This document shows, piece after piece, positions 156 to 31,723 of a stretch of DNA of 37,021 nucleotides. Source of the DNA: Acidiferrobacteraceae bacterium (GTDB lineage Bacteria > Pseudomonadota > Gammaproteobacteria > Acidiferrobacterales > Sulfurifustaceae); contig JAJPKH010000115.1 of NCBI GenBank assembly GCA_021323795.1, forward strand, positions 1 through 37,021, given 5' to 3'. Every line of letters begins with the position of its first letter. The stretch's first letter is position 1. A model generated the notes under the pieces. The model saw only the letters and a program-made list of their open reading frames with translations, did not search any database and was not told the DNA's origin. The position numbers were made by a program, and so were the translations under genes.

Positions 156-429
156 GCCACAAACCTCCGGAAGCAAATACCGCCCAATGTGTCGCTCATC
201 TTGCGCGCCGAGCGTCAGTTCCCCACCGCGAGCACCCGCGCTTGAAACGTCTGCCATAGCAACGCGCGGGGCGCCGCTAACGCCATTAATATGAGGCGAC
301 GACGTTCGCGCGTGACACACAACATGCTTTTCGCCATGCGGAACTGCATTTCGCGGCTTGAGTCAACATGGTATCGTCCACGAGCGGTTAATAAAATACC
401 TCTCCTGTATCGCTACGAATCGAGCTCCC
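156..429. other. Divergent intergenic region, acyl-CoA dehydrogenase / aldehyde dehydrogenase
   Basis: This 274-base gap lies between two divergent genes and so should hold both promoters. The only clear signal is the GGAGG ribosome site of the minus-strand gene. An AT-richer patch (GGTTAATAAAATACC, about 386-400) lies 30-45 bases before the aldehyde dehydrogenase start and could hold a -10 element. I could not pair it with a convincing -35. The ORF listed at 31-294 is an antisense shadow. Confidence 0.4.
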
Positions 430-1866
430 ATGATCACTCGCGACAAATTTTTCCTGGACGGCCGTTGGGTCGGACCGGCCGGCCGCGGTTTCATCGACGT
501 TCATTCCCCCGCCACCGAAGAAGTCATTGCGCGCATCCCGCAGGGAAACGCGACGGATGTGGAAGCGGCGGTTTCCGCCGCTCGCCGCGCCTTCGATGCC
601 TGGTCGACGACTCCTGTCTCAAAACGGGCCGAGTACGTGCAGAAGATCCACGACGGCTTGAAAGCCCGCGCCGCGGAAATCGCCGAAACGATTTCGCGCG
701 AGATGGGCATGCCGCTCAAGTTGTCCCAGCGCATTCAAGCCGGGTCGCCGGTCGCGGTGTTCGGTTACTACGCCAAAGCGATCGCCGAATTTCCCTTCGA
801 GGAGCGCGTCGGAAATTCGCTCGTGGTACGCGAGCCGATCGGCGTCGTGGCGGCGATCACGCCCTGGAATTACCCGCTGCATCAAATATCGCTCAAGGTG
901 GCTCCCGCGCTCGCGGCCGGCTGCACGGTGGTACTGAAACCGTCCGAAGTTGCGCCGCTCAACGCGTTCATTCTCGCGGAAGTCATCGAAGCGGCGGGCC
1001 TGCCCGCCGGCGTTTTCAATCTGGTGACCGGTTACGGCCCCGTCGTCGGCGAAGCCATGGTGGCGCATCCCCAAGTAGATATGGTGTCGTTCACCGGTTC
1101 GACCGCCGCCGGCAAACGCGTGTCCGAAATTGCGGCGAAGACCGTCAAACGCGTGGCGCTCGAGCTCGGCGGAAAATCGGCGGCGGTGATTCTGGACGAC
1201 GCCGATCTCGCAAGCGCCGTTAAAGGCGTCGTCACCAACTGCTATCTCAATTCCGGCCAGACGTGCACCGCGCATACGCGCATGCTGGTGCCGGAGTCGA
1301 AGTATCAGGAAGCGGCGAAGATCGCCGCGGAAGTCGCGAAGCACTTCCGCATCGGCGACCCGCTGACCGAGGGCACGACCCTCGGGCCGCTCGCGTCGGC
1401 GGCGCAGCGCGAGCGCGTGGTGAAATACATTCGCAAAGGCATCGAAGAAGGCGCGCAACTGCTCACGGGCGGCGCCGAACGTCCGGCGGGTCTCGCCAAG
1501 GGCTACTACGTACAGCCGACCGTATTCGGCGACGTGAAGCCCGGCAGCACTATCGAGCAGGAGGAGATCTTCGGCCCGGTGCTCGCCATCATTACTTATA
1601 AAGACGAAGACGAGGCCGTGCGCATCGCCAACGGCACGCCGTACGGCCTCGCCGGCGGCGTGTGGTCGGCGAGCGAAGAGCGGGCGCAGAAAGTTGCGCG
1701 GCGCCTGCGCACCGGCCAGGTGGATATCAACGGCGGACCGTTCAACATCCAGGCGCCGTTCGGCGGCTACAAGCAATCCGGCAACGGACGCGAGCTCGGA
1801 CGCTACGGTCTCGAGGAATTCCTCGAGTACAAGGCGATGCAGTTCAAGCCGGCGAAAACCGGCTGA
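430..1866 (+). CDS. Aldehyde dehydrogenase family protein (NAD(P)+-dependent)
   Basis: The 478-residue protein has the usual length of the ALDH superfamily, which oxidises aldehydes to carboxylic acids with NAD(P)+. Visible motifs are TPWNYPL with the oxyanion Asn at about 147, FTGSTAAGK of the cofactor-binding fold, ELGGKS with the general-base Glu at about 245, NSGQTC with the nucleophilic Cys at about 279, and EEIFGPVL near the C-terminus. The track extends the ORF to 358, but homologues begin close to the [13 protein letters not shown] segment, so I chose the ATG at 430. The substrate cannot be assigned. The neighbouring acyl-CoA dehydrogenase, on the opposite strand, hints at carboxylic acid or aldehyde catabolism, which is inference only. 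Confidence 0.93.
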
Positions 1867-2039: not shown

Positions 2040-3140
2040 ATGCGTAAACACCGCCGGCTTTTTTTCGCGATCCTCTGTGTCGCCGCCCTTCCCTGCAACG
2101 CCGCCCCACGCCTCGGCGAGCTTCGGCTTCCGCCGGGATTCACCGTCTCCGTTTATGCCGATAAGGTGCCGAACGCGCGCTCGCTCGCGCTCGGCCCGGA
2201 CGGCACCGTGTACGTCGGCACCAACGCGGACAAGGTTTATGCCCTGGTGGGCCGTGGCGCCGGCCAACCCGCGGAGGTCGTGACGATCGCCGAGGGCCTG
2301 CGCGGACCGAACGGGGTCGCCGTACACGCCGGTGCGCTCTACGCGGCGGAAACTCAGCGCGTGATCCGGTTTCCCGATATCGCCCGCCATTTACGCGAGA
2401 AGCCGAAGTACGAGGTGATCTACGACCAGCTGCCGGCCACCCGCTCGCACGGCCGGCGTTTCGCGCGCTTCGGCCCCGACGGCAAGCTCTACGTCGGCGT
2501 CGGCGCGCCGTGCAACATCTGCGAGCCCGATCCTGAAAAGTTCGCCGTCATCCGCCGCCTCGACGCCGACGGCGGCGCCGCGGAAGTCTACGCGCGCGGA
2601 ATTCGCAATACCGTCGGCTTCGATTGGCACCCCCAAACGAAAGAACTATGGTTCACGGACAACGGGCGTGATTGGCTCGGCGACGACAGTCCGCCGGATG
2701 AGCTCAACCACGCGCCTAAGGCTGGTTTGCATTTCGGCTACCCGTACTGTCACGCCGGCGATATCCCCGATCCAGAATACGGCAAGAAAAAGTCGTGCGA
2801 GGCATTTACTCCGCCGGCGCTCAAGCTGGCGCCGCATGCGGCCGCCCTCGGGATGCGCTTTTATACGGGTGCGCGGTTCCCCGCGCGCTACCGCAACGGA
2901 ATTTTCATCGCCGAACACGGTTCCTGGAACCGGCGCAATCCGATCGGTTATCGCGTGATGTTCGTGCCATTTCAAAACGGAAAGCCGGCCGGCTATGACA
3001 TGTTCGCCGAAGGCTGGTTGCAACGCGGGCGTCCGTGGGGCAGGCCGGTCGATGTGCTCGTCACGCCGGATGGGGCGCTCCTCGTCTCGGATGATCACGC
3101 GGGAGTCGTTTATCGAATCACGTACAGCGAAAATAAGTGA
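2040..3140 (+). CDS. Secreted sorbosone/glucose dehydrogenase-like beta-propeller protein
   Basis: The 366-residue protein starts with a signal peptide (MRKHRR, hydrophobic FFAILCVAALP, likely cleavage after CNA-A near residue 21), so it should act in the periplasm. The rest reads as a six-bladed beta-propeller of the soluble PQQ glucose dehydrogenase / L-sorbosone dehydrogenase family. Supporting motifs are LRLPPGFTVSVYAD, a repeated GPDGTVYVG/GPDGKLYVGVG, RGIRNTVGFDWHP, LWFTDNGRDWLGDD, PPDELN, and FIAEHGSWNR near the end. Members of this family oxidise sugars or related aldehydes with PQQ, but many homologues have no proven substrate. Two Cys pairs (CNIC, and YC/SC) could form disulphides. 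It lies 173 bases after the aldehyde dehydrogenase on the same strand, so co-transcription is possible but not shown. Confidence 0.88.
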   Translation: MRKHRRLFFAILCVAALPCNAAPRLGELRLPPGFTVSVYADKVPNARSLALGPDGTVYVGTNADKVYALVGRGAGQPAEVVTIAEGLRGPNGVAVHAGALYAAETQRVIRFPDIARHLREKPKYEVIYDQLPATRSHGRRFARFGPDGKLYVGVGAPCNICEPDPEKFAVIRRLDADGGAAEVYARGIRNTVGFDWHPQTKELWFTDNGRDWLGDDSPPDELNHAPKAGLHFGYPYCHAGDIPDPEYGKKKSCEAFTPPALKLAPHAAALGMRFYTGARFPARYRNGIFIAEHGSWNRRNPIGYRVMFVPFQNGKPAGYDMFAEGWLQRGRPWGRPVDVLVTPDGALLVSDDHAGVVYRITYSENK

Positions 3141-3376: not shown

Positions 3377-4651
3377 ATGCGACGCCGAATGCGGGCGGTC
3401 CTCGTTGCTGTGTCAGCCGCGGCCGCTTTGATGGTCACGACAACGCAAGCCGCCGAAAAACCCATAAAAATCGGAATCATCGGGCCGATGGCCTTTGTCC
3501 AGGGCGAAAACCATTGGGCGGGCGCCGAGCTTGCCAGGGACGAAATCAACAAAGCGGGCGGTATTAAGGTCGGAAGCCAAAAGCACCCGATCGAGATAGT
3601 CAAAGTGGATTCGAACGAAATACAAAGCGTGCCGGATGCGACCAACGCCATGGAACGCGCGCTGACGCAGGACAAGGTGGATTTCGTCATCGGCGGATTC
3701 CGTACCGAAGCCGTGCTCGCGATGCAAGACGTCGCCATGGACTACAAGAAGATCTTCCTCGGCGTCGGCGCGGCGCATGAGCAACTCGGGCTGCGCGTGC
3801 AGCAAAACTACGATCGCTACAAGTATTGGTTCCGCATCGCGCCGATCAAGTCCGGCGATCTCGGCAAAGTGCTTTTTGCGGGGCTCGGCGCCATCGCGGC
3901 ACAAATCCGCAACGACCTCGGCAAACCCGTCCCGAAAGTCGCGATCGTGGCGGAAAAGGCCGTATGGGTGGAAAGCATCGTCAAAGCGGCGCAGGACAAC
4001 CTGCCGAAAATGAAGATGGAGGTGGTCGGCGTGTGGCAGCCTTCGCCGGTCGCGACCGATGTCACGGCCGAGCTCTCCGCCATTCGCCGCGCCGGCGCGG
4101 ATCTGGTCTTCACCGCGATCTCGGGCCCGGTCGGCATCGTCATGGGCCGCCAGATGGGCGAGTTGCAAATCCCGGCGATTCCATTCGGCATCAACGTCGA
4201 AGCGCAGAAAGAAGGCTTCTGGCAGGCGACCGCCGGCAAGGGCAATTACGTCTCGACGCTCGATACGTACGGTGAGGGCGTGGAAATCACTCCACAGACG
4301 CTTCCGTTCGTAAACGCCTTCAAGAAACGCTTCGGCAAGCCGCCGACGTATACCGCCTCGACCTACGACGCGATGTATGCATTAAGAGCCGCCGTCGAAA
4401 CGGCCGGCACGATCGACGCCGACAAGCTCGTACCGGTACTCGAAAAGACGGATCTCGTCGGCGCCGCCGGGCGCTTGGTGTTCGATAAGCTGCACGATCC
4501 GGTGTTCGGCCCCGGCTACGTCACGGGGCTCGCCGTGCAATGGCAGGACGGAAAGAAAGTCGCCTTCTGGCCGAACAACTGGAACGGCGTCACGTACAAA
4601 GGCGTACAGACTTTCAAGATACCGCCGCAGATGATGCAAAAGAAAAACTGA
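3377..4651 (+). CDS. ABC transporter substrate-binding protein, branched-chain amino acid (LivJ/Leu-binding) family
   Basis: The 424-residue precursor has a signal peptide (MRRRMRAVLVAVSAAAALM, cleavage probably near TTQAA-EKP). The mature periplasmic-binding fold begins IKIGIIGPMAFVQGENHWAG, and the family core DEINKAGGIKV follows. It would bind a solute in the periplasm and hand it to the LivH-LivM channel encoded next. The start at 3377 is chosen over the track start (3287) because GGAGG lies about 9 bases before the ATG and the signal peptide begins there. Binding proteins of this family take branched-chain amino acids, amides, urea, aromatic acids and others, so the ligand is open. A long hairpin follows the gene, which probably sets its expression above that of the permeases. 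Confidence 0.92.
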   Translation: MRRRMRAVLVAVSAAAALMVTTTQAAEKPIKIGIIGPMAFVQGENHWAGAELARDEINKAGGIKVGSQKHPIEIVKVDSNEIQSVPDATNAMERALTQDKVDFVIGGFRTEAVLAMQDVAMDYKKIFLGVGAAHEQLGLRVQQNYDRYKYWFRIAPIKSGDLGKVLFAGLGAIAAQIRNDLGKPVPKVAIVAEKAVWVESIVKAAQDNLPKMKMEVVGVWQPSPVATDVTAELSAIRRAGADLVFTAISGPVGIVMGRQMGELQIPAIPFGINVEAQKEGFWQATAGKGNYVSTLDTYGEGVEITPQTLPFVNAFKKRFGKPPTYTASTYDAMYALRAAVETAGTIDADKLVPVLEKTDLVGAAGRLVFDKLHDPVFGPGYVTGLAVQWQDGKKVAFWPNNWNGVTYKGVQTFKIPPQMMQKKN

Positions 4652-4668
4652 AGCGCTGAGCGGCTCGG

Positions 4669-4699
4669 GCGCCCTTGGTCCCGCCGGGACCAAGGGCGC
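4669..4699 (+). terminator. Strong hairpin between binding-protein gene and livH
   Basis: GCGCCCTTGGTCCC pairs perfectly with GGGACCAAGGGCGC (14 bp) around a 3-base GCC loop, followed by ATTTGTGT. It begins 17 bases after the stop of the binding protein and ends 51 bases before livH. Placed inside an operon, such a structure usually causes partial termination and protects the upstream mRNA. That would give more binding protein than permease. Confidence 0.75.
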
Positions 4700-4750
4700 A
4701 TTTGTGTCCGGCCTGCTCACCGCCATCGTAATCGCCGCGAAGCGTTAATC

Positions 4751-5620
4751 ATGTTTCAAGACATCCTGATCACCGGGCTGGTAAATGGAGGCGTGTACGC
4801 GCTCCTGGCCGTAGGCTTCTCGCTCATCTTCGGCGTGGCGCGCATCGTCAACATCGCGCACACCGCGTTTTACATGCTCGCCGCTTACCTCGTGTATGCG
4901 TTTCTCAACATCGCCGGCCTGCCCCTGCTGGTTTCCGTCATCCTCGCCGTCGGATTGGTAACCGCCTTGAGCATGGTTTGTTACAAACTGGTCATCGAGC
5001 CGGTGCGCGAGTACGAGTCGGCCGTGCTGATCGCCACCATCGCGCTGGCGCTGATCTTTCAAGAATCCCTGCTGCTCACGTTCGGCGGAAACTTTCTCGG
5101 CAGCCCGACCTTGATCGCCGGCAACATGGACGTGGCCGGCGTGCGCGTCACCTACCAGCAGTTGTTGACGATCGTCGTCGTCGCGCTGGTGCTCGCCGGC
5201 ACGTGGTTCTTGCTGCACAAGACGCGCCTCGGGCTCGCGATTCGCGCCACCGCGAATGATCTCGAGGTCGCCAATTTGATGGGCATGAACGTCGGGCGCA
5301 TCGCCATGTACACGGTCGCCATTTCCGTCGCCTTGGCCGCGATCGCGGGCGTCGTCGTCGCGCCGCTCTTTGTCGTCGATCCGCTGATGTGGCTGGCGCC
5401 GCTGGTTACGATGTTGGCCATCGTCGTTCTCGGCGGGCTGGGCAGCCTGAAAGGCAGCCTCATCGGCGCTTTTATCATCGCTTACGTGGAGGCCATCACG
5501 GTATTCACCGTGCCGGCGGGATCGTTCTTAAAGGGGGCGGTGGCGTTGTCCATTATGGTCGTGGTTTTGCTCATCCGGCCCGAGGGTTTGTTCGGGGTCG
5601 CTTTCGAAGAAGAGAGATAA
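4751..5620 (+). CDS. livH: Branched-chain amino acid-type ABC permease LivH
   Basis: The 289-residue, very hydrophobic protein shows the LivH signature from its start (ITGLVNGGVYALLAVGFSLIFGVARIVNIAH) and roughly eight membrane segments. The loop that contacts the ATPase reads RLGLAIRATANDLEVANLMGMNV, and the C-terminal end GGLGSLKGSLIGAFIIAYVE is also typical. It forms half of the inner-membrane channel with LivM. Its TAA stop overlaps the livM start as TAATG, so the two are translationally coupled. No strong Shine-Dalgarno is seen before the ATG. The symbol denotes family, not proven substrate. Confidence 0.93.
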   Translation: MFQDILITGLVNGGVYALLAVGFSLIFGVARIVNIAHTAFYMLAAYLVYAFLNIAGLPLLVSVILAVGLVTALSMVCYKLVIEPVREYESAVLIATIALALIFQESLLLTFGGNFLGSPTLIAGNMDVAGVRVTYQQLLTIVVVALVLAGTWFLLHKTRLGLAIRATANDLEVANLMGMNVGRIAMYTVAISVALAAIAGVVVAPLFVVDPLMWLAPLVTMLAIVVLGGLGSLKGSLIGAFIIAYVEAITVFTVPAGSFLKGAVALSIMVVVLLIRPEGLFGVAFEEER

Positions 5621-6669
5621 TGCGCGCCCTCATTTATCCGATACGGCGCGCTTATATCCTGCTGCGCACCGAGGTCTTCGCGCTGCCGAGCCGGGCCGTG
5701 GTTTTTCTGTTCAGCCTCGCGCTGCTGCTGCTGCCGCTTTACTCGACCGATCCCTACGTGCTGCGCATCGTCATCATGACCTGCGTGTTCGCGATTTTCG
5801 CCGCCAGCTGGGATCTGCTCGCCGGCTACACCGGGCAGGTCAATTTCGGACACGCGCTGTTCTTCGGCATCGGCGCGTATGCCTCGTCGCTGCTTAACTA
5901 TCACTTTCAGTTGAGCCCCTGGATCACGATACCGATCGGCGCGATCTCCGCGATGCTCGGCGGTATTCTCGTCGGTATTCCGTGCCTGCGCCTGCGCGGA
6001 TCGTATTTGAGCCTGGCCACGCTCGCGTTTCCGCTGATTCTCATCGGCCTCCTGTTCGCGTTCCCCGGCTTCTCCGGCGGCGAGCTCGGCATTTCCGGAA
6101 TCCAGCGGCTCTTTACCTATCCGGTGCACAATTACTACGCCGCGGTGATCCTGATGCTGGTGCTGTGCTTCGCCATGTGGAAGATCGGCGATTCCAACAC
6201 CGGGCTGATCTTTCACGCGATCCGCGAAGATGAAGTCGCGGCGCGCGCGTCCGGCATCAACACCAAGCGCTACAAGCTGCTGGCGTTCGGCTTGAGCGGC
6301 TTGTTCGCCGGCATCGCGGGCGCCTTCTTCGCGCATTTCATCCGCATCGCCGGCCCGTCGACGCTGGAGGTGGCGCTGTCGTTCCAGGCGGTGATCTGGG
6401 GCATCTTCGGCGGCGTCGCGACGATCTACGGTCCCGTCGTCGCCGTCTTCATTCTCTATCCGCTGACGGAAGCCGTCGCGGTATTTCCCGCGCTGCGGGA
6501 ATACCGGCTGCTGATACTGGCGATCGTGGTATTGCTGGTGCTGCTCTTCATGCCGCAAGGATTGACGCCGTGGCTGCGCAACAAAATCGAAACCGTGTGC
6601 CGCCGCTGCAAGAACCGCAACGTGTTCTGGCGGCGCGAGTGCCGGGTGTGCGGCACGGAGTTGCACTAG
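5620..6669 (+). CDS. livM: Branched-chain amino acid-type ABC permease LivM with C-terminal zinc-ribbon-like tail
   Basis: The 349-residue protein carries LivM hallmarks: the run LLAGYTGQVNFGHALFFGIGAY, GIPCLRLRGSYLSLATLAF, and the ATPase-contact loop IREDEVAARASGINTKRYK. After the last membrane span (LLVLLFMPQGLTPWLRNK) there is an extra basic tail with two CxxC pairs: C327/C330 and C341/C344, separated by ten residues. This is the pattern of a small zinc ribbon. I know of no such module as a standard part of LivM. The start at 5620 overlaps the livH stop; the track start at 5389 is an artefact of an open frame. LivG and LivF ATPase genes do not follow and are not in the window, so the transporter must recruit ATPases encoded elsewhere. 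Confidence 0.92.
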   Translation: MRALIYPIRRAYILLRTEVFALPSRAVVFLFSLALLLLPLYSTDPYVLRIVIMTCVFAIFAASWDLLAGYTGQVNFGHALFFGIGAYASSLLNYHFQLSPWITIPIGAISAMLGGILVGIPCLRLRGSYLSLATLAFPLILIGLLFAFPGFSGGELGISGIQRLFTYPVHNYYAAVILMLVLCFAMWKIGDSNTGLIFHAIREDEVAARASGINTKRYKLLAFGLSGLFAGIAGAFFAHFIRIAGPSTLEVALSFQAVIWGIFGGVATIYGPVVAVFILYPLTEAVAVFPALREYRLLILAIVVLLVLLFMPQGLTPWLRNKIETVCRRCKNRNVFWRRECRVCGTELH

Positions 6670-6671
6670 CC

Positions 6672-6693
6672 GAACGCGCTCTTTCGCGCGTTC
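6672..6693 (+). terminator. Hairpin immediately after livM
   Basis: GAACGCGC and GCGCGTTC form a perfect 8-bp stem around TCTTTC, starting 3 bases after the livM stop and followed by TTCTC. It is a reasonable candidate terminator for the transporter operon, although the T-run is short and interrupted. Confidence 0.55.
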
Positions 6694-6713
6694 TTCTCGG
6701 CATTGGGACCCTT

Positions 6714-6745
6714 CGAGCCACAGGACTTCCTTGTCCGGTGGCTCG
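6714..6745 (+). repeat. Long inverted repeat (hairpin) between livM and cnoX
   Basis: CGAGCCAC-A-GGAC-ttcctt-GTCC-G-GTGGCTCG forms a 12-bp stem with a single A/G mismatch. It lies 20 bases behind the livM hairpin. It has no T-run, so it may be a second terminator, a Rho-site companion, or a REP-like element. It precedes the region where the cnoX promoter should lie. Confidence 0.5.
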
Positions 6746-6862
6746 GGAGCGACCCTGCGACGTGCGCGCCGAGCGGCGCTCGACCGTCAAGCGCAAAATC
6801 CAACCCTTCAAACCCCGTGGCGATACTTGATCGCCCGGAACCGAGCCCCCATAACATGGCAC

Positions 6863-7747
6863 ATGGCCGATTCACCCCACATTGCCGACGTCAGCCGTGC
6901 CGATTTCGCCGCGCGCGTCGTCGCGCGCTCGCATCAAGTACCGGTGCTCGTCGATTTCTGGGCGCCGTGGTGCGGCCCCTGCCGCATGCTCACTCCGGTT
7001 CTAACTCGGCTCGCCGACGAGTACGGCGGCAAGTTTTTCCTCGCCAAAGTAAATACCGACGACGAGCAGGAGCTCGCGATGGAGTACGGGATACGCGGTA
7101 TTCCCGCGGTCAAGCTCTTTCGCGACGGTAGAGTAGCGGGCGAATTCGTCGGCGTGCAGCCCGAATCCGCCGTGCGCGCCCTGATCGATCGCTTCGTTCC
7201 GCGCGAGGCCGACGCGGTTATCGAACGGGCGCAGGCGCTCGCGCGCGCGGGCAATATCACCGAAGCGATCGCGTTGCTGCGAGAAACGGCAAATCGCGAT
7301 CCGCGCCACGACAAAGTGAAAATCGAGCTTGCGCGGTTGCTGTCTTCGTCAGCCGACGGCAAGGACGTAAAGGCTCGGGTCGAAGAAGCCCAGCGCCTGC
7401 TCGATTCGCTCTCGGTCCGAACCGGCGCCGATCCCGACGTCGAGGCGCTGCGCGCGCGCCTCGATTTCCTGCGCATCGTCGCCGACGCGCCGCCTATCGA
7501 CGCGCTCAAGCGTTCCCTCCAGGCGAATTCGGGCGACCTCGATGCGCGCTATGCGCTGGCGGCGCGCCTGGCGCTCCAGGGGAAATATGAAGATGCGATG
7601 GAAGAGTTTCTCGAGCTGGTCCGGCGCGATCGCCGCTTCCGCGACGACGCCGGCCGTAAGGGGTTGCTTGCCGTTTTTAATCTCGTCGGCAGCCGCGACC
7701 CGCGCGTCGCGAAATACCGCGCCGTCCTGGCGCGCGCGCTGAATTAA
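6863..7747 (+). CDS. cnoX: Thioredoxin-TPR co-chaperone, CnoX/YbbN type
   Basis: The 294-residue protein has an N-terminal thioredoxin domain (about 1-110) with VDFWAPWCGPCRM, active-site Cys at about 37 and 40, and the cis-Pro segment GIRGIPAVKLF. A helical TPR-like C-terminal half follows, ending in the typical GDLDARYALAARLALQGKYEDAMEEFLELVRRD segment. This two-part layout is that of CnoX (YbbN), a cytoplasmic holdase that protects proteins from oxidation and passes them to GroEL or DnaK. Here the full CxxC is kept, so redox activity is likely; E. coli CnoX has lost one Cys. The start at 6863 (MADSPHI) is preferred to the track start at 6731, whose first 44 codons look non-coding and overlap the hairpin. 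Confidence 0.88.
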   Translation: MADSPHIADVSRADFAARVVARSHQVPVLVDFWAPWCGPCRMLTPVLTRLADEYGGKFFLAKVNTDDEQELAMEYGIRGIPAVKLFRDGRVAGEFVGVQPESAVRALIDRFVPREADAVIERAQALARAGNITEAIALLRETANRDPRHDKVKIELARLLSSSADGKDVKARVEEAQRLLDSLSVRTGADPDVEALRARLDFLRIVADAPPIDALKRSLQANSGDLDARYALAARLALQGKYEDAMEEFLELVRRDRRFRDDAGRKGLLAVFNLVGSRDPRVAKYRAVLARALN

Positions 7748-8633: not shown

Positions 8634-8982
8634 CGCGGTAGGTACAGCCTGCCGTGCAGGTCTCGCGCACCGTTACCTCGGCGAGCGTGGGCAGGCGCGG
8701 GCGCAGGCGCTGCCAAACCCACGCGGCGAGATTCTCGCTGGTGGGGTTTTCGAGCCCCGGAATTTCGTTCAGGTAGTTGTGGTCGAGTTGCCGAAATAAC
8801 GGATCGAACGCCGCGCCGAGGTCGGCGAAATCCTGCACCCAGCCGCTCTGCGCGCCGACGGGGCCTCTTACCCGCACCTCGATCCGGAAGGAGTGGCCGT
8901 GAAGACGCCGGCACTTGTGTCCTTCCGGCACGTTCGGCAGACGATGCGCCGCTTCGATGGTGAAAACCTTGAATATTTCCAC
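8623..8982 (-). CDS. queD: 6-carboxy-5,6,7,8-tetrahydropterin synthase QueD
   Basis: The 119-residue protein is close to E. coli QueD along its whole length. It converts 7,8-dihydroneopterin triphosphate to 6-carboxytetrahydropterin, the second step of preQ0/queuosine synthesis. Zinc ligands are visible as EAAHRLP (His13) and RLHGHSF (His28, His30). The catalytic Cys24 sits in EGHKC, and the C-terminal [13 protein letters not shown] is diagnostic. No other queuosine gene (queC, queE, queF) is in the window, so the pathway is scattered. No preQ1 riboswitch was recognised in the 110-base upstream gap. Confidence 0.96.
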
Positions 8983-9092
8983 GCGCTACAGACTAGGACC
9001 GATCGGCGGTAGTTTACTCTTTTTTGGCGACGTCGCGAGTTTATCTTGTCACGGCGACGCGGCTACAATATGCGCTTTCGTAAGCACGAATC

Positions 9093-9908
9093 ATGACTTC
9101 GACGCCGCTAGCGTTACTCATCGAACCCGCCGACCTTGCCGCGCTCCTTGGCGCGCCTGATCTGCGCATCGTCGACCTGAACCAACCGCACGTGTATCTG
9201 CGCGCGCATATCCCGGGTGCGGTCTCGCTCGACTACGGCCGCATCGTGGCACCCCGGCCGCCGGCCGCCGCGGTGCTGCCCACCGCGGAGCATCTCGCGG
9301 ATGTTCTCGGTTCGATCGGCCTCGGCCCGAACCACCAGGTGGTCGCCTACGATGACGAGGGAAACGGCCGGGCCAGCCGCTTTCTCTGGACGCTCGCGGC
9401 CGTCGGGCACGCCAAGGCATCGCTCCTCAACGGCGGACTCCGGGGATGGATGAGCGAAAACCGGCCGACGGAAAGCGGAGCGCCCACGACTACGCGCACC
9501 AGCTATCCCGTGAGGATCGGCGGCGATGTTATCGCCGATAAGGAATACATTCTCGCGCACCTCAAGGATCCGGCCGTCGTGCTGGTCGATACGCGCTCGC
9601 CCGAGGAATACACCGGAACGATGGTGCGTGCCGAACGGGCCGGACATATTCCCGGCGCGGTGAACTTCAACTGGACCGATGCGATGGACCCGGCGCGGCT
9701 ATTGCGGTTAAAAGATGCCGCCGAGATCAAGAAGGCCTTGGAGGCGAAGGGCATCACGCCCGATAAGGAGATCATTACGTATTGCCAAACTCACCACCGC
9801 TCGGCTCACACGTACATGGTCCTGAAGATCCTCGGTTACCCGAGGGTAAAGTCCTACCCCGGCTCCTGGTCGGAGTGGGGTAACCTGCCCGATACGCCTA
9901 TCGAATAA
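9093..9908 (+). CDS. Tandem-rhodanese sulfurtransferase (thiosulfate/3-mercaptopyruvate type)
   Basis: The 271-residue protein consists of two rhodanese domains. The N-terminal domain (about 8-120) has DLNQPHVYLRAHIPGA and YDDEGNGRASR but no catalytic Cys. The C-terminal domain (about 145-268) has VDTRSPEEYTG, the spacer RAGHIPGAVNFNW, and the active-site loop CQTHHRSAH with Cys231. It transfers sulfane sulfur from thiosulfate or 3-mercaptopyruvate to a thiol or cyanide acceptor. The loop differs from the CGSGVTA loop of E. coli SseA and looks more like thiosulfate-using rhodaneses, so I give no symbol. The start is the ATG at 9093. A TACAAT lies at 9064-9069, but I found no matching -35 at proper spacing. 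Confidence 0.92.
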   Translation: MTSTPLALLIEPADLAALLGAPDLRIVDLNQPHVYLRAHIPGAVSLDYGRIVAPRPPAAAVLPTAEHLADVLGSIGLGPNHQVVAYDDEGNGRASRFLWTLAAVGHAKASLLNGGLRGWMSENRPTESGAPTTTRTSYPVRIGGDVIADKEYILAHLKDPAVVLVDTRSPEEYTGTMVRAERAGHIPGAVNFNWTDAMDPARLLRLKDAAEIKKALEAKGITPDKEIITYCQTHHRSAHTYMVLKILGYPRVKSYPGSWSEWGNLPDTPIE

Positions 9909-10119
9909 ACGGAGACACTCGGTCGTCCGTAGGCACTACATCCATTTCTGTTTGATCGCGGTTCAATGCTTCCCCGTGACAAACGTGCAGTGCGTAGACA
10001 TCTCCCACCAGCACCATCGCCGCGGCATCGCCGATTTCATCCGGATCGTTCGCCGCGCACTCGTTTTCGACCTCGCGTATCAGGGCTTTTGAAAAGTCGT
10101 CTAGAAAGTTATGGTTCAT
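9898..10119 (-). CDS. Small acidic hypothetical protein
   Basis: The 73-residue reading frame overlaps the end of the sulfurtransferase gene by 11 bases, tail to tail. The protein is acidic, with an amphipathic N-terminal half (NFLDDFSKALIREVENEC) and a second part (DAAAMVLVGDVYALHVCHG) that could form a short beta-alpha unit. It has three Cys (one in NEC, one in HVC) and no recognised domain. Its composition looks like real protein rather than a shadow, because it lacks the Arg/Pro/Ser-rich bias seen in antisense frames here. The Shine-Dalgarno is weak (AGGGTG, about 11 bases before the ATG). I cannot assign a function. Confidence 0.5.
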   Translation of the reverse strand: MNHNFLDDFSKALIREVENECAANDPDEIGDAAAMVLVGDVYALHVCHGEALNRDQTEMDVVPTDDRVSPFIR

Positions 10120-10250
10120 GGTACATGCACCCTGTTCTGTACACCCATACAGGGAGCAAGGAGCATGCCACGCGCCAAAAGCATGCCGCGCCGCCGGGCG
10201 AGGGACGCTGGTATCATGTATTTCGGCATTAGCACTTGAGGGAATGGACG

Positions 10251-10694
10251 ATGGCTAAAACGTGGATCCTGGTAGCGCACCGCAGCGGCGCCCGTCTCTT
10301 CGAGAACAGCGGCCCCGGCAAAGGCCTGGAATTGCTGCAAAACATCGATAACCCGGCCGGGAAATTGAAAAACCAAGAAATCAACAGCGACAAGCCCGGG
10401 CGCTCCTTCGATCGTCGCGGCGGCGGTCGCCACGCCTATTCCGCCGAGCAGGACCCAACCACCCACGTCGCCGAGCACTTCGCAAAGCAGTTGGGCGCGC
10501 TGCTCGAGGATGGGCGCACGGAACAACGCTATTCCCGGCTCGTGCTCGTCGCCGACCCGCGTTTTCTCGGCCTCTTGCGCGGTTCGCTCCCCGCGCAAAC
10601 GGCGGCGCTGGTCAGCGCGACATTGGACAAGGATTTGGGGGGAATCGAGCCGCGCGATCTGCCGCGACATCTGGAAAACGTCGTCTACGTATAG
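10251..10694 (+). CDS. Host-attachment-protein family (PF10116-like)
   Basis: The 147-residue protein begins MAKTWILVAHRSGARLFEN, the usual opening of the family annotated as protein required for attachment to host cells. It continues with DRRGGGRHAYSAEQDP, AEHFAKQLGALLEDG and LVLVADPRFLGLLRGSL, as in that family. The fold resembles the eRF1 domain-2/Rossmann-like group, and the true biochemical role is not established; the name comes from a plant-associated bacterium. The ATG at 10251 (five codons inside the track ORF) fits homologues and has GAGG about 10 bases upstream. It stands alone on plus, after the small minus-strand ORF. Confidence 0.8.
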   Translation: MAKTWILVAHRSGARLFENSGPGKGLELLQNIDNPAGKLKNQEINSDKPGRSFDRRGGGRHAYSAEQDPTTHVAEHFAKQLGALLEDGRTEQRYSRLVLVADPRFLGLLRGSLPAQTAALVSATLDKDLGGIEPRDLPRHLENVVYV

Positions 10695-10739
10695 CGCGCC
10701 GGAAAACCGCCGCGTGGCGGCGCGACTGACGAGAAACGG

Positions 10740-11891
10740 CTATCCGACCGCCGCCGCCAGGCGCCGCACGCCTTCCCCGAGCTTTTCCTGCGCCGTGGCA
10801 TAAGAGAAGCGCAGGTATTCCCCGCTTCGGTGACGGCCGAAGTCGATGCCCGGCGTCACGGCAACGCCCGCGCGCGTGAGCAAATCGAGCGCGAATGCGC
10901 GGCTGTCGGACGCAAACCGTCCGCAGCCCGCGTATATGTAGAACGCCCCGTCCGGTGTAATGGGAATATCGAAACCGAGTGCCCGCAGGGCGGGTAGCAG
11001 ATAATCCCGCCGGTCCTGGAACGTGCGCCGACGTCGTTCGAGCTCCGCGCGAACCTGGGGATCGAAGGCGACGAGCGCCGCGTACTGAGCCGGAGTGCTG
11101 GCGGCGATAAAAATATTCTGCGCCAGCTTTTCGATCGCCGACAGGTACTCATCGGGCACCACGAGCCAGCCGAGCCGCCAACCCGTCATACCATAATACT
11201 TAGAAAAGCTGTTCACGATGAAGACGTCGGGCGAATGCGCAAGCGCGCTTCTCGCTTCCACGCCATAAGTCAGGCCGTGATAGATTTCATCGACGATCAA
11301 CACACCGCCGAGCTCGGCCACGGTGTGAACGATGCGCGCCATTTCTTCGTCGGGCACCAGCGTCCCCGTCGGGTTGGATGGCGAGCTGAGCAAAACCGCG
11401 ACCGTGTTGCGCGTCCAATGGGCACGGATAAGGTCGGCGGTAAGCTGGAAGCGTGTTTGCGGACCGACGGGAATTGCAACCGGTTCGCCTTCGAACAAAC
11501 GCACGAAGTGGCGATTGCACGGGTAGCCGGGATCGGCCACGAGCACGCGCTCGCCCGGGTTGAGGATGGCCGCCAGCGCAAGCGTGAGGGCGCCCGACGC
11601 GCCGGGCGTGATCACCACGCGCGCGGGATCCGGCCGCTCGCCGCCCGGATAGCTCCCGGCGACAGCCCCGCGCAACGGATCGAGCCCGAGCGCCGGCAGA
11701 TAATGGGTGCGGCCGGCGGCAAGCGCCTCGGTGCCGGCCCGCACGATCGCCTCCGGCGTCGGAAAATCGGGCTCGCCGATCTCCATGTGAATAATCGAGC
11801 GGCCCTGCGTCTCGAGGGCGCGCGCCCGGGCGAGTACGTCCATGACGTGGAACGGTTCGATGCCCTGCAGGCGGCGCGCGAGGTGGGTCAT
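10740..11891 (-). CDS. Class I/II pyridoxal-phosphate aminotransferase
   Basis: The 383-residue protein is a fold-type I aminotransferase of the AspC/alanine-aminotransferase-like group, exchanging an amino group between an amino acid and a 2-oxo acid in the cytoplasm. Motifs are MEIGEPDFPTP near the start, TPGASGALTLAL, and SSPSNPTGT with the cofactor-contacting Asn (about 173). DEIYHGLTY follows with Asp201 and Tyr204, then NSFSKYYGMTGWRLGW with the Schiff-base Lys at about 231. The substrate cannot be fixed. I moved the start from the track position (11969) to the ATG at 11891 (MTHLARRLQ), because the first 26 residues are Gly/Ala-rich and absent from relatives. It is divergent from dksA. 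Confidence 0.92.
   Translation of the reverse strand: MTHLARRLQGIEPFHVMDVLARARALETQGRSIIHMEIGEPDFPTPEAIVRAGTEALAAGRTHYLPALGLDPLRGAVAGSYPGGERPDPARVVITPGASGALTLALAAILNPGERVLVADPGYPCNRHFVRLFEGEPVAIPVGPQTRFQLTADLIRAHWTRNTVAVLLSSPSNPTGTLVPDEEMARIVHTVAELGGVLIVDEIYHGLTYGVEARSALAHSPDVFIVNSFSKYYGMTGWRLGWLVVPDEYLSAIEKLAQNIFIAASTPAQYAALVAFDPQVRAELERRRRTFQDRRDYLLPALRALGFDIPITPDGAFYIYAGCGRFASDSRAFALDLLTRAGVAVTPGIDFGRHRSGEYLRFSYATAQEKLGEGVRRLAAAVG

Positions 11892-29113: not shown

Positions 29114-31723
<2,610 letters not shown>

Follow-up and report, generated by a model that had tools for sequence, protein, structure and literature searches.

The LivM permease encoded in a 37,021-nucleotide contig from an Acidiferrobacteraceae genome (this whole stretch is the window) ends in two closely spaced pairs of cysteines, raising the question of whether they form a genuine domain and, if so, what such a domain would do on an importer of the branched-chain amino acid type.

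A conserved four-cysteine tail at the C terminus of LivM

The livM reading frame, which shares its first base with the end of the livH stop codon, closes with CRRC-x10-CRVC-GTELH (C327, 6598-6600; C330, 6607-6609; C341, 6640-6642; C344, 6649-6651). The initial annotation had recognized this CxxC-x10-CxxC ending, and its coordinates, 6598-6669, are correct; the tail comprises 23 residues plus the stop codon, not 24 residues (Table 1). The protein is a PF02653 permease (BPD_transp_2; 160 bits, cut-off 26.8, residues 47-308), and its alignment to the NCBIfam LivM model stops at residue 324, that is, before the tail. All four cysteines and the gap of exactly 10 residues between the pairs are kept in 26 of 26 sequences (the window and 25 relatives), as are E324, R329, K331, R342 and L348, and conservation is only slightly lower at R338 (25/26) and N334 (24/26). 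This conservation is a stronger argument for a real tail than the finding that the motif occurred in none of 20,000 random 33-residue tails drawn from the composition of the LivM body. Residue 328 is Arg in the window alone and Pro in 24 of the 26 sequences. Within the linker joining the last membrane helix to the cysteines, a segment predicted as a short helix in both the full-length LivM model and the tail model, W318 is kept in 25 of 26 sequences and Asp occupies position 321 in the same number, the window having Asn. Pooled pN/pS was 0.49 for the tail versus 0.39 for the LivM body and tail changes between close sequence pairs are mostly synonymous, so the tail evolves as a protein sequence.

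Table 1 Features of the importer locus and of its counterpart on a second contig of the same genome
Feature	Position	Strand	Basis
Aldehyde dehydrogenase; start codon uncertain	358-1866	+	Domain match
GSDH-like protein of the glucose/sorbosone dehydrogenase family, encoded upstream of the SBP	2040-3140		
Substrate-binding protein (SBP), PF13458 (Peripla_BP_6); start codon uncertain	3377-4651	+	Pfam
livH, PF02653 permease without tail	4751-5620	+	Pfam
livM, PF02653 permease carrying the tail	5620-6669	+	ORF, 349 aa plus stop; Pfam E 6.7e-47
Linker WLRNKIETV, LivM residues 318-326, between last membrane helix and predicted zinc knuckle	6571-6597	+	
Four-cysteine tail of LivM, residues 327-349, CRRCKNRNVFWRRECRVCGTELH	6598-6666	+	26/26 conservation; tail model
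Thioredoxin-TPR repeat fusion protein, encoded downstream of livM	6731-7747		
Ligase, livG and livF in a row on G000:C30 (L060)	Ligase 4143-5843; livG 5840-6619; livF 6600-7355		

The tail is predicted to form a cytoplasmic zinc-finger-like fold

AlphaFold2 modelling of the 36-residue tail from six sequences gave a short helix and short strands (pLDDT 79.6). A Foldseek search of the PDB with this model returned the RanBP2/NZF fingers 5af6, 3gj5, 4s1z and 3g9y, archaeal eL40 and RadD, many superposing at 0.5-0.9 Å over ~25 residues; the E-values, none better than 0.27, are in line with the very small size of the domain. The RanBP2/NZF fold consists of two β-hairpin knuckles crossed around a single zinc ion. 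With its C-x2-C-x3-N-x6-C-x2-C spacing the tail matches, in the core, the RanBP2 consensus R/K-X-G-D-W-X-C-X(2,4)-C-X(3)-N-X(6)-C-X(2)-C-X(3)-R/K (PMC7154859), and fingers of this type mediate protein or RNA contacts (PMC8034646). The Trp of W-x-C is absent (residue 325 is Thr in the window and Thr, Asn, Ser, Ala, Lys or Glu among the relatives), the tail scores at best 18.9 bits with PF00641 (cut-off 27), and every other Pfam zinc-family score is likewise below its cut-off; the tail is therefore best described as looking like a RanBP2/NZF finger rather than being one. The zinc-ribbon-like character proposed in the initial annotation thus has a counterpart in both conservation and model, and the four cysteines probably bind zinc. 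All six tails scanned also gave a sub-threshold FYVE match spanning W-x-x-D and R-x-x-C-R-x-C; assignment to FYVE (PF01363) was rejected because that domain needs eight zinc ligands for two zinc ions, the tail has four cysteines and the match covers half the profile. No PDB sequence matched LivM, searches with the tail or its profile found weak ribosomal and RanBP2 zinc proteins only, and the literature collection searched contained nothing relevant on a LivM with a zinc ribbon.

Two features suggest that the tail faces the cytoplasm, as first proposed. Residues 314-349 contain nine Lys or Arg versus three Asp or Glu, consistent with the positive-inside pattern, and the full-length LivM model (six sequences; pLDDT 54, poor) places four helices after the REDE coupling region, an even number that would return the C terminus to the REDE side, the cytoplasm.

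Tail-bearing LivMs form a single clade

The 25 relatives, ~49-75% identical to the window LivM, come from Gamma/Betaproteobacteria-type and ‘Deltaproteobacteria’ metagenome-assembled genomes (MAGs) and from Thermus plasmids; this homologue search for a C-terminal extension recovered no close relative without it. Five at 64-72% identity came from a scan of genome contigs, with the tail in 5/5, and a plasmid search added Thermus thermophilus copies at 53% identity, again with the tail. Whole-genome searches supplied the others, from G464, G673, G900 and 16 fetched genomes of one family; the gene is present in 17 of 98 genomes of that family, the seventeenth (L012) having already been recovered. 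Elsewhere the group is rare: it occurs in one of 57 genomes of the window’s own order, in 2/195 genomes of the phylum of G459 and, among 399 genomes sampled from the window’s phylum, in the window’s own genome alone. In the G673 locus (L074, G673:C2), livM (8775-9790) and the ligase gene (9977-11594) both appear frameshifted, through sequencing error or decay, and the features of LivG and LivF described below are intact, as is the tail.

The nearest tail-less LivMs (G470, G345, G657, G658, G659 and G612) end soon after their final membrane helix and form a separate, more distant set, with 33-38% identity in the five of the six compared. No search score fell between tail-bearers and tail-less LivMs apart from that of the frameshifted G673 copy, which carries the tail, and no tail was found on other LivM or LivH paralogues of the same family in the loci scanned. 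In a tree from alignments excluding the tail, a single branch (support 98/92) separated all 26 tail-bearers from the rest, and 96% of bootstrap trees needed a single tail change. The tail is thus best read as gained once.

Genes of the importer travel with an acyl-CoA ligase

The ATPases, considered missing in the initial annotation, are indeed absent from the window operon and are present elsewhere in the same genome. The ligase of a related locus (L010) finds a 64% match on another contig (G000:C30:4146-5819), and livG and livF were found behind this acyl-CoA ligase gene, so an importer lacking ATPases was rejected; the window instead holds one of two separated units. With LivH, the binding protein and two ATPases, the Liv/HAAT set is complete in the genome (window 3377-6669 plus G000:C30:4143-7355). 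With 21 PF02653 matches, this 3.35-Mb MAG is rich in Liv-type permeases.

Most relatives have SBP-livH-livM next to ligase-livG-livF in convergent orientation, and in Thermus all six genes lie in one run. The suggested link between the tail and missing livG/livF is not supported by this arrangement, in which both genes adjoin, together with the CoA ligase, in most tail loci. The ligase, by sequence an AMP-forming enzyme of the FadD/4-coumarate type, adjoins the transporter in 22 of 26 loci and lies elsewhere in the genome in two more, that of the window and G900, where the two halves are ~15 kb apart on the same contig. None was found at the threshold used in the genomes of L103 and L106, where the contig ends before the site. 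The converse rule, that any ligase-linked Liv cluster has the tail, was rejected: paralogous clusters with other AMP-ligase-like genes (L117, L118 and others) lack it, so ligase linkage alone is not predictive. A relative of the ligase on a Thermomicrobium plasmid was also set aside, as its neighbourhood contains no genes for a Liv permease or ATPase.

In L098 and L099, the aldehyde dehydrogenase next to the transporter is 70-72% identical to that of the window, which suggests a shared pathway to which the window enzyme possibly belongs. Neither the GSDH-like gene nor the thioredoxin-TPR gene has a similar gene in the flanking sequence fetched for the other tail loci, and the latter is for this reason probably unrelated.

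Both ATPases of the tail group carry insertions. LivG has a near-invariant eight-residue insertion, HKGGRFGRLHSEG, before the H-loop strand, and LivF has one of ~13 (13-14) residues that follows the Walker-A helix. Each of 25 tail-linked copies carries both, versus 0/20 controls, which include the nearest tail-less clusters; the G900 copies, additional to these 25, carry them too. Cytoplasmic additions are thus found in three of the four core subunits and, among the loci compared, are unique to the tail group. Since this group is one clade, their co-occurrence is not independent evidence of contact: tail, insertions and ligase linkage were inherited together, and co-occurrence alone cannot show that the parts touch.

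What the tail may do

We tentatively favour, at somewhat less than even confidence, a structural zinc knuckle that docks ATPase loops or the ligase, with import coupled to CoA activation. A Zn(Cys)4 knuckle of RanBP2/NZF-like geometry, cytoplasmic and directly after the last membrane helix, would characterize one Liv-type (HAAT) subfamily consisting of SBP, LivH, LivM, LivG, LivF and an AMP-forming acyl-CoA ligase. It would serve as a small docking element keeping a cytoplasmic partner at the permease, the partner being either the extra LivG/LivF loops or the ligase, and the imported carboxylate would be converted to its CoA ester on arrival. A carboxylate is the natural guess for the substrate, given the FadD/4-coumarate type of the ligase and the aldehyde dehydrogenase beside the cluster. 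Docking of the ATPases gains interest from the insertions specific to LivG and LivF of tail clusters. Several points weigh against docking: inheritance within one orthologous transporter could explain all the common features, ligase-linked Liv clusters without the tail exist, and the structural figures are modest (a tail model from six sequences, Foldseek E-values of at least 0.27, Pfam scores all sub-threshold and a full-length pLDDT of 54). A more elaborate form, which we regard as unlikely, would have the LivM finger, the LivG loop GGRFGRLHSEG and the LivF insertion together make a docking platform from which a Liv-type importer hands its substrate to the CoA ligase, an ABC-type vectorial-acylation complex found across phyla. 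The gene content points to a putative, uncharacterised transporter-enzyme module.

The knuckle could instead be purely structural, capping or stabilizing the LivM C terminus in folding, insertion or protection from proteolysis with no particular partner. This reading, rather unlikely but the best of the alternatives, accords with a small element of single origin next to the last membrane helix whose non-cysteine residues are partly variable; the five non-cysteine residues invariant in 26/26, together with R338 in 25/26, across Thermus and Proteobacteria seemingly exceed what a cap would need. Less probable again is a regulatory switch in which cysteine oxidation or zinc loss alters importer activity. 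Two CxxC pairs and a thioredoxin-TPR gene downstream in the window would suit such a switch, but no similar gene was found in the flanks fetched around the other tail loci, and Zn(Cys)4 knuckles of this kind are usually structural.

Binding of RNA or DNA (for example, membrane-localized mRNA) or of anionic lipid headgroups is slightly more doubtful than a switch. The tail is strongly basic, its fold matches include the ssRNA-binding ZRANB2 (3g9y) and ribosomal eL40, and the sub-threshold FYVE match recurs in all six scanned tails; however, most RNA-recognition residues of RanBP2-type fingers seem not to be conserved in the tail (our mapping of the residue numbers in PMC6384913), and four cysteines fall short of the eight ligands of FYVE. 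A frameshift, misassembly or chance extension has a negligible likelihood and was rejected as the origin of the tail: the MAG that contains the window is fragmented (317 contigs), but the tail is in frame in all 25 relatives and the window ClpB (29117-31723) is 87% identical to that of a same-genus genome, which places the contig in this genome.

If the docking reading is right, a zinc finger on the permease, loops on the ATPases and a travelling CoA ligase would constitute a new coupling of import to metabolism. The known cytoplasmic accessory domains of ABC importers sit mainly on ATPase subunits. Docking is directly testable because related versions occur on plasmids of the cultivable Thermus thermophilus. 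Two simple sequence markers, the near-invariant LivG loop and the tail of LivM, are also available with which to find and correctly name a transporter group now labelled merely ‘branched-chain amino acid’.

Comparison with known systems

The tail shares with RanBP2/NZF fingers (PF00641) the C-x2-C-x3-N-x6-C-x2-C core and a predicted backbone within ~0.6 Å over 25 residues, and differs in lacking W-x-C, in its sub-threshold score and in its attachment to a membrane permease. With Double zinc ribbon and Zn_ribbon_3 (PF12773 and PF13248) it shares the CPxC-x10-CxxC layout and a Leu three residues on at the end; its scores are under the cut-offs, and these modules usually carry Gly right after the first cysteine pair, where the tail group has a conserved Lys. 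As in vectorial acylation, in which FadL/FadD-type uptake is joined to an acyl-CoA synthetase, transport genes are linked to an AMP-forming acyl-CoA ligase; the tail-group importer is by contrast an ABC system, the evidence for its putative coupling to the ligase being gene linkage. The closest relatives are the LivHMGF/HAAT importers, which likewise combine two PF02653 permeases with a PF13458 binding protein and a pair of ATPases. The window LivM is weakly similar to the curated Escherichia coli LivM model (NF008450; 131 bits, cut-off 366) and scores 111 bits with UrtC (TIGR03408; cut-off 296), placing it below the threshold of both families. To this common importer plan the tail group adds a zinc-finger-like tail, insertions in both ATPases and an orthologous CoA ligase.
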